NCBI GenBank assembly: GCA_949293285.1 | Contig: CASFCU010000036.1 | Coordinates: 1-38,602, forward strand | Direction: 5' to 3' | DNA from: an uncultured bacterium | Lineage (GTDB): Bacteria; Bacillota_I; Bacilli_A; RF39; UBA660 | DNA: 38,602 nt | In this document: one piece after another, positions 2,202-5,519 of the stretch | Position numbering within the stretch: position 1 is the first letter of the stretch | Layout: every line of letters begins with the position of its first letter | The notes under the pieces: generated by a model | Seen by the model: the letters and a program-made list of their open reading frames with translations, nothing else | Told to the model about the DNA's origin: nothing | The model's database searches: none | Made by a program: the position numbers and the translations under genes

Positions 2202-2317
2202 TTTTTATACTTATTTTAAATTAATTTCAGTATGTGTCATTTAGTTTTTAGATAAATTTATGAAAAAGTGAGGAAATTCTTTTTTTATGGATAATAATTT
2301 AATCGAGGAGGTGATTT

Positions 2318-4399
2318 ATGAGAAAATATGTTTGCGTTATGCAGGACGGAATAAAAGATTGTGGTGTTTGTTCCTTGTTAACTATCATCAAAAGTTATGG
2401 CGGGAATGTACCACGTGAGTATTTACGAATGATAACGAATACCACTAATGATGGTGTCAATGCTTTTTCTTTGTTAGAGGCTGGAAGAAAATTGGGTTTT
2501 GATGCTAAAGGTGTAAATGGTAGTGTTTTTGATATAGATAAAAAGTTTTTGCCTTGTATAGCTCATGTAATTATTGATGGTAAATATAAACATTTTGTGG
2601 TTATTCATGAAATAAATATGAAAGCTGGAAATTTAATTTTGGCAGATCCAGCCAAAGGTATCGTTAAAATGAAAATAGAGGATTTTTTAAAGATAACTAC
2701 AAGTAATTTTTTGTTTTTAACTCCTAATAAAAAAATACCGTTTATAAAATCAGGTAATGAGATAAAAAGTTTAGTTTTCAATTTTTTGTATATGAACAAG
2801 AATATATTGTTAATGATTGCTTTCCTTTCTATTTTGTATACAATTTCTAATATTTTAACTTCATTTAATTTTCAATTTATTATAGAGAAAGCGTTGACTT
2901 ATCAATCAAAGTCAAATTTGTATTTTATTGTATTTCTCATGATTTTATTGTATATTTTAAAAAATACTGCTGATTATATGCGTAATCGACTTCTAAACTT
3001 TGTTAGTCATAAATTGGATTATATTTTAATTAGTAATACATTTTCTCATGTTTTATTGCTTCCTCATCTTTATTATAAAAATCGAACTACTGGTGAAGTT
3101 ATTTCAAGAATCAATGATTTAGGTGAGATAAGAGATTCTATAAGTCATTTGATTGTTACTTTTTTAGTAGATACCGTTTTACTTTTTTTTGTTATCTTCT
3201 TTCTTTTTTCAATTAGTGTTACTTTATCATTTATTGTTTTATTTTCTATTATTATTTATATTTGTTTTACTATTTTTTTTAATAAGTTGATATATCATCG
3301 GGTACGTGCTATTAAAGAGAATGAGGCTTTCGTTCATTCTTATATGATTGAACTTATTAGTGGTGTTGATTCTGTTCGTGGAATGAATGTTTTTGATACT
3401 GTGATGGACAAATTTTCTTATTTGTATAATAAATATTTGCTTTCTAGTTATCATTTCAGTTTTTTTGCTAATTTACAAAAATTTGTAGATAATGTTTTTG
3501 TTTCTTTATTGATGATGGTTTTAGTTTTTGTTGGTAGTATTATGGTTATGAATAATGAATTATCATTGGGGAATCTTATTACTTATCATGCTCTTATTTA
3601 TTATTTTTTGGAGCCTATTAGAAATATAATTCATTTTGATATTATCTTAAAAAAAGCTAGGATAGTTGTTGATAGAATCAATGAAATTTTGGCTATGGAA
3701 ACGGATGATTTGTTATCTGATTCTAATGCTATTATGTTTCTTGATGGTGATATTGTGATAAAGGATCTTTCTTATTCGTACAATGGTAGAGATTTTTTAT
3801 TTAAAAATTTATCATTTTCTTTAAAAAAAGGTGAAAAAATCGTTATTTGTGGTGAATCTGGAAGAGGAAAAAGTACACTTGCTAAAATCATTGCCAGATA
3901 TATTCCGATTCCTAGAAATTTTGTTTTTGTAGATGGTAAAGATATTAATGATATTAATCTTTGGGCGTTACGTGAGTGTGTTACTTATGTTTCTCAGAAT
4001 GAAATTCTATTTACCGATACTATTTATAATAATATAAATATGAATAATACACGTGACTATAATAGAGTATCGGATGTTTGTAAATATACTTTGGTAGATG
4101 AAGTAGTTAAAGATAGAAATTTGGGATATTATACTTTACTCGAGGAGAATGGTGCTAATATAAGCGGAGGAGAAAGACAACGTATTATTCTTGCTAGGAC
4201 ATTTTTAAAAAATAGTAACGTATATATTCTCGATGAATCTTTTAGTGAGATAGATGTGAATACTGAGAAAAAAATTATTCTTAATTTATTAAAATATTAT
4301 AGCAGTAAGACTATTATTGTGATATCACATAGAAAAGATAATAATTATTTATATGATAAGGTAATTGATATGGAGAATTTTATATATGAAAATTCTTGA
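2318..4399 (+). CDS. Peptidase-containing ABC exporter for double-glycine peptides (C39 peptidase-TMD-NBD)
   Basis: 693 aa, the usual length of bacteriocin-processing exporters (LcnC/ComA type). Residues 1-125 form a C39 peptidase: Gln9 and Cys15 in QDGIKDCG, His92 in KHFVVIHE, Asp110 in ADPA. A six-helix membrane domain (about 155-440) and an ATPase follow, with Walker A GESGRGKST, Q-loop YVSQNE, signature NISGGERQR, Walker B VYILDES and H-loop ISHRK. It should cut leaders after Gly-Gly inside the cell and export the mature peptides, whose likely precursors lie downstream at 4822 and 4974. The start is preceded by a consensus GAGGAGGTGATTT. The next gene overlaps its 3' end, so it heads an operon. 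Confidence 0.93.
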   Translation: MRKYVCVMQDGIKDCGVCSLLTIIKSYGGNVPREYLRMITNTTNDGVNAFSLLEAGRKLGFDAKGVNGSVFDIDKKFLPCIAHVIIDGKYKHFVVIHEINMKAGNLILADPAKGIVKMKIEDFLKITTSNFLFLTPNKKIPFIKSGNEIKSLVFNFLYMNKNILLMIAFLSILYTISNILTSFNFQFIIEKALTYQSKSNLYFIVFLMILLYILKNTADYMRNRLLNFVSHKLDYILISNTFSHVLLLPHLYYKNRTTGEVISRINDLGEIRDSISHLIVTFLVDTVLLFFVIFFLFSISVTLSFIVLFSIIIYICFTIFFNKLIYHRVRAIKENEAFVHSYMIELISGVDSVRGMNVFDTVMDKFSYLYNKYLLSSYHFSFFANLQKFVDNVFVSLLMMVLVFVGSIMVMNNELSLGNLITYHALIYYFLEPIRNIIHFDIILKKARIVVDRINEILAMETDDLLSDSNAIMFLDGDIVIKDLSYSYNGRDFLFKNLSFSLKKGEKIVICGESGRGKSTLAKIIARYIPIPRNFVFVDGKDINDINLWALRECVTYVSQNEILFTDTIYNNINMNNTRDYNRVSDVCKYTLVDEVVKDRNLGYYTLLEENGANISGGERQRIILARTFLKNSNVYILDESFSEIDVNTEKKIILNLLKYYSSKTIIVISHRKDNNYLYDKVIDMENFIYENS

Positions 4400-4817
4400 T
4401 TATCAGGAGTTATTTAGTAACAAAAAAATATATTTATGGAAAAACTTAGTAGTGGTATTGATTTTTATTTTTATAATTATTTTTATAGTAATGTTTCATA
4501 ATCATTTTTGTGATTATTATGAGGGGTATGCTTCTTTTGATAGTGCAAATAGATTTAGTACTTTAGTACATGTTAATGATTTACAAAAAATATTGAATAG
4601 TAAAGAAATAGTAATAGAAGGGTCCACATTTTCTTACAGTGTTGATAGTATTGATGATACTGATTTTGTCTATGAAGAAGAAATCTTTAAAAGAGTCTAT
4701 GTAACGATAGATTCTGATAAATATTCTACTATTGAAAATAATTATATTGTTTATCATATTATTTTAAAAAGGGATACTATTTTAAATTATGTTATAAAAT
4801 CTATAATTGGGGGATGA
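4386..4817 (+). CDS. Minimal bacteriocin-export accessory protein (short HlyD-like topology)
   Basis: 143 aa. The topology is a 22-residue cytoplasmic N-terminus (MKILDYQELFSNKKIYLWKN), one long hydrophobic helix (about 23-42) and an outer domain of about 100 residues with predicted beta strands. This matches the N-terminal layout of LcnD/ComB accessory proteins. Those have a long coiled coil and about 450 residues, all absent here. A start at 4365 is possible, but GGAG 10 bases before 4386 favours the latter. The gene overlaps the exporter by 14 bases and ends 4 bases before the first peptide gene, so a role in export of those peptides is inferred. No exact family is recognised. Confidence 0.65.
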   Translation: MKILDYQELFSNKKIYLWKNLVVVLIFIFIIIFIVMFHNHFCDYYEGYASFDSANRFSTLVHVNDLQKILNSKEIVIEGSTFSYSVDSIDDTDFVYEEEIFKRVYVTIDSDKYSTIENNYIVYHIILKRDTILNYVIKSIIGG

Positions 4818-4821
4818 TGAG

Positions 4822-4965
4822 ATGAATGATTTAACGCAAGAGAAATTAAAAAAGATAGATGGTGGTGGAATATCGGTATGGGGAGTTTTAACTATTGTTA
4901 CTGGTATTGTGTTTTTAGTAGGTGTAATCGATGGTTTTGTTAGGCCACTATCTTGCAATGAATAG
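4822..4965 (+). CDS. Class II bacteriocin precursor 1, double-glycine leader, 47 aa
   Basis: A 47-codon frame opens with the leader MNDLTQEKLKKIDGG, which fits the double-glycine consensus: Leu at -12, Leu at -7, Ile at -4, Gly-Gly at -2/-1. Cleavage after Gly15 would leave a 32-residue hydrophobic peptide starting GISVWG. It has a helix-like centre, a GxxxG motif (Gly34-Gly38, GVIDG) and an ending RPLSCNE with a single Cys45. It sits between the accessory gene and a second such peptide, with GGGGG/GATGAG before the ATG. The mature sequence fits a membrane-inserting peptide. The named bacteriocin family is not recognised. Confidence 0.85.
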   Translation: MNDLTQEKLKKIDGGGISVWGVLTIVTGIVFLVGVIDGFVRPLSCNE

Positions 4966-4973
4966 GAGGGTTT

Positions 4974-5144
4974 ATGAGAGAGATTGTTAATACTTCTGAA
5001 CTTTTGTCAATAGATGGCGGGCTTTCCATTTCTGGTAGTCTTATCAATGCCTTTACTAGCGGAATAAAAATTGTTCTTGAAGTTGGTAGAAGCTTTGGTA
5101 CATCAATTCGAAGGATAATTATTGGTAATTTATGTCACGTATAA
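4974..5144 (+). CDS. Class II bacteriocin precursor 2, double-glycine leader, 56 aa
   Basis: A 56-codon frame follows the first peptide gene by 8 bases, with a perfect AGGAGG site. The leader MREIVNTSELLSIDGG matches the double-glycine consensus (Val -12, Glu -8, Leu -7, Ile -4, Gly-Gly). The predicted mature peptide has 40 residues. It begins LSISGSL, is amphipathic, and contains a GxxxG motif (Gly38-Gly42, GRSFG), a basic Arg46-Arg47 pair and one Cys54 near the end. Two adjacent leader peptides with GxxxG motifs are the hallmark of two-peptide (class IIb) bacteriocins, so this is probably the partner of the 47-aa precursor. Confidence 0.85.
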   Translation: MREIVNTSELLSIDGGLSISGSLINAFTSGIKIVLEVGRSFGTSIRRIIIGNLCHV

Positions 5145-5302
5145 TTAAAAAAAATATACGGGAAAATAAAAAAGTTATTCTTTTGATTATGGCATCACCA
5201 TTTATTGCATATTGTTTCAATGTTTTTGTTACTTTTATATTTCATTTGGGAACCTATTTGGGAACTTATTTTAGGTATTTGTATTCTAATATGGTTTGTT
5301 AA
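5132..5302 (+). CDS. Small membrane protein, candidate bacteriocin immunity protein
   Basis: 56 aa: a strongly basic N-terminus (MSRIIKKNIRENKK), then hydrophobic residues 15-37, then a C-terminus ending exactly in Cys56. The start lies inside the 3' end of peptide gene 2 (13-base overlap), which suggests translational coupling; its own ribosome binding site is weak. The last 18 residues, LGTYLGTYFRYLYSNMVC, share Gly, Gly, Thr, Arg and Cys at identical spacing with the end of peptide 2. Small cationic membrane proteins encoded directly behind bacteriocin genes are usually immunity proteins. The resemblance suggests it binds peptide 1 or the target in place of peptide 2. That mechanism is inference. 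Confidence 0.68.
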   Translation: MSRIIKKNIRENKKVILLIMASPFIAYCFNVFVTFIFHLGTYLGTYFRYLYSNMVC

Positions 5303-5519
5303 TGTGAAAAAGGCTCTTTGGTCTTTTTCTTTTTTTAATTTATGTTTTAATAGATATTTGATCTTTTGTGAATATTTGCAAAGAATTTGATAAAGTTTGA
5401 AGTAATTTGAGATATTAGCAAAAGATTTTATGGCTGGAGTTATTAAATCGGAGTGTTTTTGATAAGTATAAATGATGAAAAAAAGCTATTTTGAATTTGA
5501 AAATGGATATGAATAGTCC

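Follow-up and report, generated by a model that had tools for sequence, protein, structure and literature searches.

Introduction

Bacteriocins are normally patchy, mobile and fast-changing weapons; they are rarely as conserved as the genes described here, and fixation throughout a family is atypical of ordinary ones. In Bacillus, SigH controls many transition-state genes. Among the closest described systems, CibABC of Streptococcus pneumoniae is a two-peptide bacteriocin with its immunity protein, encoded by genes that ComX induces (PMC5295010). SigH activates com genes in Lactobacillus sakei (PMC3364868) and controls them in Listeria, where the sigma-H promoter of comEA consists of AAAGGAATT, 11 nt and GGCGAAT (PMC4754846). 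Immunity to class IIb bacteriocins was called a mystery by a 2019 study (PMC6957408), and the C39 exporters of Mycoplasma have unknown substrates (PMC6609329).

Here we analyse a two-peptide operon in a 38,602-nucleotide stretch of DNA (the window) from an uncultured bacterium. An earlier note on this DNA had proposed a class IIb bacteriocin pair or, alternatively, a signalling pair. We call the lineage RF39-type because the loci of its named relatives include that of Candidatus Faecisoma merdavium, whose genus is assigned to GTDB order RF39 (PMC8035907). Our literature searches, which paired RF39 with bacteriocin or competence and Mollicutes with double-glycine, brought up no account of this system.

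Organisation of the operon

The ORFs of the window confirm an operon of five frames. It is flanked by a sigma-H-type promoter and a terminator-like hairpin, neither of which the earlier note had mentioned:

2271..2300, plus strand: sigma-H-type promoter, AGGAAAT (2271-2277), 14 nt, TAATAATTT (2292-2300), immediately 5' of the ribosome-binding site (conserved motif, matrix score)
2318..4399, plus strand: C39-peptidase ABC exporter, 693 aa (Pfam domains, PDB match)
4386..4817, plus strand: 143-aa accessory protein (AlphaFold2 model, weak MacA/BesA matches)
4822..4965, plus strand: pepA, 47-aa double-glycine (GG)-leader precursor, mature part of 32 aa ending GVIDGFVRPLSCNE (conservation, dN/dS)
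4974..5144, plus strand: pepB, 56-aa GG-leader precursor, mature part of 40 aa containing GRSFGTSIRR, its Cys being C-terminal (conservation, dN/dS)
5132..5302, plus strand: ORF5, 56-aa single-TM protein (profile likeness to mature pepB, dN/dS)
5306..5338, plus strand: intrinsic-terminator-like hairpin (5306-5329) and T run at the operon end (pattern match only)

The exporter, 143-aa protein, two precursors and 56-aa membrane protein are thus all in the places first reported, and the genes, described as overlapping or at most 10 bases apart, are joined in order by a 14-nt overlap, 4 nt, 8 nt and a 13-nt overlap. The comparison of gene order suggested at that time also upheld the operon: pepA-pepB order is the same in 80 of 80 named relatives and the exporter stands in front in 78 of 81 operons, the window's included, the other three ending at a contig boundary. 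This conservation is far beyond chance. The gap between pepA and pepB is 1218 nt in one locus (L068, 6774-7994) and 710 nt in another (L079, 7279-7991), and holds a methyltransferase-like frame in the genome of the latter (L023) and another frame in that of the former. Upstream of the window's operon, on the minus strand at 1186-1889, lie frames of 184 and 49 aa with no Pfam match, which resemble an AbiEi-type antitoxin region.

The exporter carries Peptidase_C39 (101.5 bits), ABC_membrane and ABC_tran domains in Pfam; its best PDB match is an ABC-type bacteriocin transporter (E 5e-104), and it is the sole C39 exporter found in the window's 1.2-Mb, 90-contig genome. Among the pepB-positive genomes tested, 22 of 22 have a C39 exporter beside the pair, one each. 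Six of eight pepB-negative genomes have no C39 domain, one has a weak match in another protein, and the eighth (G242) has an exporter close to the beginning of a contig, and there the peptide genes may have been cut off.

AlphaFold2 models the accessory protein as an N-terminal TM helix and a beta-barrel (mean pLDDT 89), leaving no room for the lipoyl and helical-hairpin domains of HlyD/ComB-type membrane-fusion proteins; its Foldseek matches to MacA/BesA are weak (E about 0.02) and suggestive at most, and no recurring Pfam family was found among its members. The gene (at least 110 aa) is present in 56 of 78 operons; its product probably serves the exporter as a cut-down membrane-fusion protein of the HlyD/ComB-like kind.

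The two peptides and ORF5

The pepA leader is MNDLTQEKLKKIDGG and that of pepB MREIVNTSELLSIDGG; likeness between the precursors is confined to the leader. The invariant residues are mostly within the mature parts (F..G..DG..RP..C in A; GRSxGxxIRR......C in B), which are strongly conserved across genera. As the earlier note had read them, both mature peptides have a GxxxG motif, GVIDG in A (each G at least 90% conserved) and GRSxG in B (invariant in 63), and a single Cys, which is C-terminal and conserved. Residues 21-50 of pepB are predicted to form one long helix. The two adjacent GG-leader precursor genes, the GxxxG in both mature peptides and the C39 exporter in the locus are features of class IIb bacteriocins. 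When the window precursors were compared with known families, as had been advised, none in Pfam or NCBIfam reached its curated cut-off: pepA scored 16.4 bits against 27.1 for Bacteriocin_IIc (PF10439) and 16.1 against 21.5 for TIGR03949, and pepB matched neither. Membership of a known named family was rejected on these scores, wider alignment members giving weak Bacteriocin_IIc matches only.

ORF5 has no leader; its N-terminus is basic, a hydrophobic stretch follows and the tail reads GxxxGTxxR. Its last 34 columns align with mature pepB in a profile-profile comparison (hhalign probability 94, E 9e-8). The pepB profile also matches ORF5 positions weakly in several genomes. By its sequence, then, ORF5 is a leaderless and apparently membrane-anchored look-alike of mature peptide B. 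Its size and topology fit an immunity protein, and two-peptide bacteriocins can have immunity proteins no larger than this, CbnZ having one N-in/C-out TM helix (PMC6957408). It is a plausible candidate for that role and may act by mimicking peptide B. An automated call, with a few doubtful cases, recognises ORF5 in some two thirds to three quarters of operons; the remaining quarter to a third have no recognisable one, so immunity would need another source in these. In one locus (L120) the place of ORF5 after pepB is taken by a small GG-leader precursor (3402-3521), the third there.

Distribution, inheritance and selection

Whole-genome searches with pepB alone found it, one match each, in 345 of 386 same-family genomes; among good genomes of the family the count is 235 of 252 (about 93%), and 144 of 150 genera have it. 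In an order sample searched with a 15-row profile, 138 of 146 genomes were positive, all pertaining to this family, and in a class-wide sample 35 of the 38 genomes from the family carried pepB, against 0 of 258 from other families of the class. A phylum-wide sample gave five weak extra matches, mainly over the leader region, and we rejected these as relatives beyond the family: in the one that was read (L216), the mature part is by eye unrelated. This small protein, with a GG/AG-leader-like start, lies on the minus strand at about 1290-1620 of L216, a locus in a Mollicutes-type genome (G727), with the rplU-rpmA region on one side and an rsmI-like gene on the other, and four other genomes of its family show similar leader-only matches; such proteins are candidate substrates of the orphan mycoplasma C39 exporters (PMC6609329).

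The operon's inheritance is mostly vertical. In 27 genomes the exporter and rpoB trees have 14 of 24 splits in common (2000 label shuffles gave a mean of 0.25 and a maximum of 3), with no conflict between splits of support 95 or more. A plasmid- or phage-borne bacteriocin was rejected on this congruence and on tblastn searches, which gave no match for pepA and a consensus-like pepB in 72,556 plasmids, nor for pepB in 50,697 phages. In one genome (G036, contig C6 near 127928, L198) the rpoB search gave a fragmentary match inside an open frame of 24,166 aa, perhaps masked (N) sequence.

Pooled Nei-Gojobori dN/dS, from pairs that are mutually non-independent, is 0.12 for pepB, 0.18 for pepA, 0.18 for the exporter, 0.25 for ORF5 and 0.33 for the accessory protein. 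The two precursors are under purifying selection; that they might show neither selection nor conservation as genes, which the earlier note had named as fatal to its reading, was not seen.

A promoter motif in common with DNA-uptake genes

Upstream of the exporter, relatives have AGGAAAT, usually 14 nt, a block like GTATGATA or CTAATATAA, and the ribosome-binding site. As far as sequence can tell, this motif is the -35 sequence of a sigma-H promoter at sigma-H spacing. AGGAWWT occupies the promoter position in 38 operons and in only 2 among roughly 330 other starts (with denominators rounded, Fisher P 2e-29); beyond pepAB and a few operons it is seldom seen.

With a matrix built from 59 pepAB promoters and 366 starts as controls, the window's operon promoter scores 10.5, above the 99th control percentile. 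So do the comEA upstream regions of 11 of 25 genomes (P 5e-8), and comEA and pepAB scores correlate genome by genome (rho 0.76, P 6e-5), kinship among the genomes inflating these P values. In the window's genome comEA (7.4) and pepAB (10.5) both exceed the 95th percentile. In about half the genomes the promoter common to pepAB and the DNA-uptake genes is strong; in others it is weak, scores being at background level in several genera for pepAB and comEA operons alike.

A stricter pattern, applied to eight genomes only, turned up more of these sites. In G114 and G037 one precedes comEA-comEC; G114 has another before dnaG, followed downstream by an rpoD-length sigma gene; and in G088 one lies upstream of rlmB-sigH. 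Sigma-H-type motifs also precede nuclease-like genes in G114 and G088; in the latter they stand before nuclease/recombinase-like or apparently decayed genes on contigs C9, C17, C21, C22 and C23 (L241, L245, L248-L250), possibly a repeated element that carries a promoter.

A SigH-type gene lies beside rlmB in the four genomes read, its best matches being SigH-group models, below their curated cut-offs. In the window's genome (contigs C34, C4, C12, C55, C27 and others) there are nine matches to sigma-70 region 2, several of them 230-280 aa long, as well as spoIIID- and mreB-like genes (L221), which suggests sporulation-type genes in part of the lineage; another genome (G057) retains only one RpoD-length and one SigH-like sigma gene. 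ComEC is found in 21 of 22 pair-positive genomes and is intact in 2 of 8 pair-negative ones, G100 and G157 having ComEC without the pair and G077 the pair without detected ComEC; this association comes from a small sample and a statistic that ignores phylogeny, and it weakens to P 0.07 if fragments are counted and G242 is moved.

A proposed competence-linked peptide pair, and the alternatives

We lean, by a little, towards a competence-regulated two-peptide bacteriocin, class IIb-like in kind and CibABC-like in working, which is a core trait of the RF39-type lineage. The mechanism we infer runs from sigma-H dependence through export, pairing and killing to immunity and DNA release. Entry into a sigma-H-driven competent state would turn the pepAB operon on, SigH RNA polymerase transcribing the exporter, accessory, pepA, pepB and ORF5 genes within the comEA-comEC programme. 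The C39 exporter would cleave both leaders after GG and export peptides of 32 and 40 residues, which would pair via GxxxG in the membranes of neighbours not expressing ORF5; the permeabilised neighbours would release DNA and nutrients for uptake. ORF5 would stay in the producer membrane and, as a mimic of peptide B's GxxxGTxxR half, could compete for peptide A or the target to leave only expressing cells protected. The class IIb pair first proposed thus keeps its paired GG leaders, GxxxG motifs, C39 exporter and small membrane protein; what falls away is the isolated antimicrobial, as the operon is clade-wide core and has a promoter in common with DNA-uptake genes.

Weapons are not the only possibility. 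A membrane-active A-B heterodimer restrained by the ORF5 mimic could be a fixed, non-antagonistic part of a lineage-wide sigma-H competence programme, aiding DNA acquisition on self or kin, which we hold to be unlikely. Decidedly unlikely, in our judgement, is any fixed self- or kin-directed role in competence free of antagonism, such as local membrane permeabilisation that aids DNA acquisition or release with ORF5 as its restraint: near-universal vertical inheritance, tight constraint on the mature peptides and the promoter common to pepAB and comEA would suit it, but the architecture is of the bacteriocin type, and the two pepB-negative genomes that keep intact ComEC imply that uptake genes can persist without the pair.

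We regard with similar doubt the idea that the pair, or one member of it, is a secreted ComC/CSP-like pheromone that induces or synchronises competence, its sigma-H promoter providing positive feedback. Streptococci do use GG-leader peptides, C39 ABC transporters and an accessory protein in this manner (PMC5295010), and a LytTR regulator is present in 23 of 29 pepB-positive genomes. However, the other 6 of these 29 lack it; in the three genomes read its gene lies away from the operon, beside mreB-type genes, and no histidine kinase or response regulator was found inside the operon of the window or of its relatives. A signal, moreover, needs neither two different conserved peptides nor an ORF5, and such signals usually diverge between species, which pepA and pepB do not; the signalling alternative of the earlier note is accordingly less likely.

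A class IIb bacteriocin of the ordinary kind, subject to general control by sigma-H (transition-state) and functionally untied from DNA uptake, would accord with the many transition-state genes governed by SigH in Bacillus and with the motif before dnaG and nuclease-like genes, but is very unlikely given the motif's rarity beyond pepAB and a few operons, the tracking of pepAB and comEA promoter scores, the ComEC association and the atypical family-wide fixation.

To return to the competence-regulated bacteriocin: that about 93% of the species sampled from an uncultured gut lineage with small genomes keep the pair, in single copy and mostly by vertical inheritance, suggests that peptide export linked to DNA uptake is core biology there. 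The resemblance of ORF5 to pepB offers a testable mimicry mechanism for class IIb immunity, and with the shared promoter comes a competence regulon that, as far as our literature searches show, is the first to be predicted in this lineage.

Comparison with known systems

Mycoplasma C39 exporters (NF045998; syn3A 0401) share with the operon a peptidase-containing ABC exporter in related genome-reduced bacteria, but the window's exporter scores 290 bits on the NF045998 model, whose cut-off is 500. With the sigma-H competence regulons of Listeria and L. sakei (PMC4754846, PMC3364868) the predicted RF39-type programme has in common an AGGAWTT-type -35, the spacing, and comEA-comEC and dnaG operon targets; it differs in a more variable -10 block (TAT/GAAT/AAT) and in including a peptide-export operon.

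Class IIb systems such as lactococcin G, the plantaricins and carnobacteriocin XY likewise have paired GG leaders with GxxxG, a C39 exporter and a short membrane protein behind. Unlike them, the RF39 pair has a single Cys, conserved and C-terminal, in both of its peptides, reaches no curated cut-off, is followed by an ORF5 that resembles mature pepB and is conserved clade-wide. CibABC is like the RF39 operon in layout: two peptides with a small protein behind, and expected expression with late competence genes. The RF39 operon departs from it in having its own exporter, a sigma-H-type rather than a ComX promoter, and a lineage-wide core distribution.
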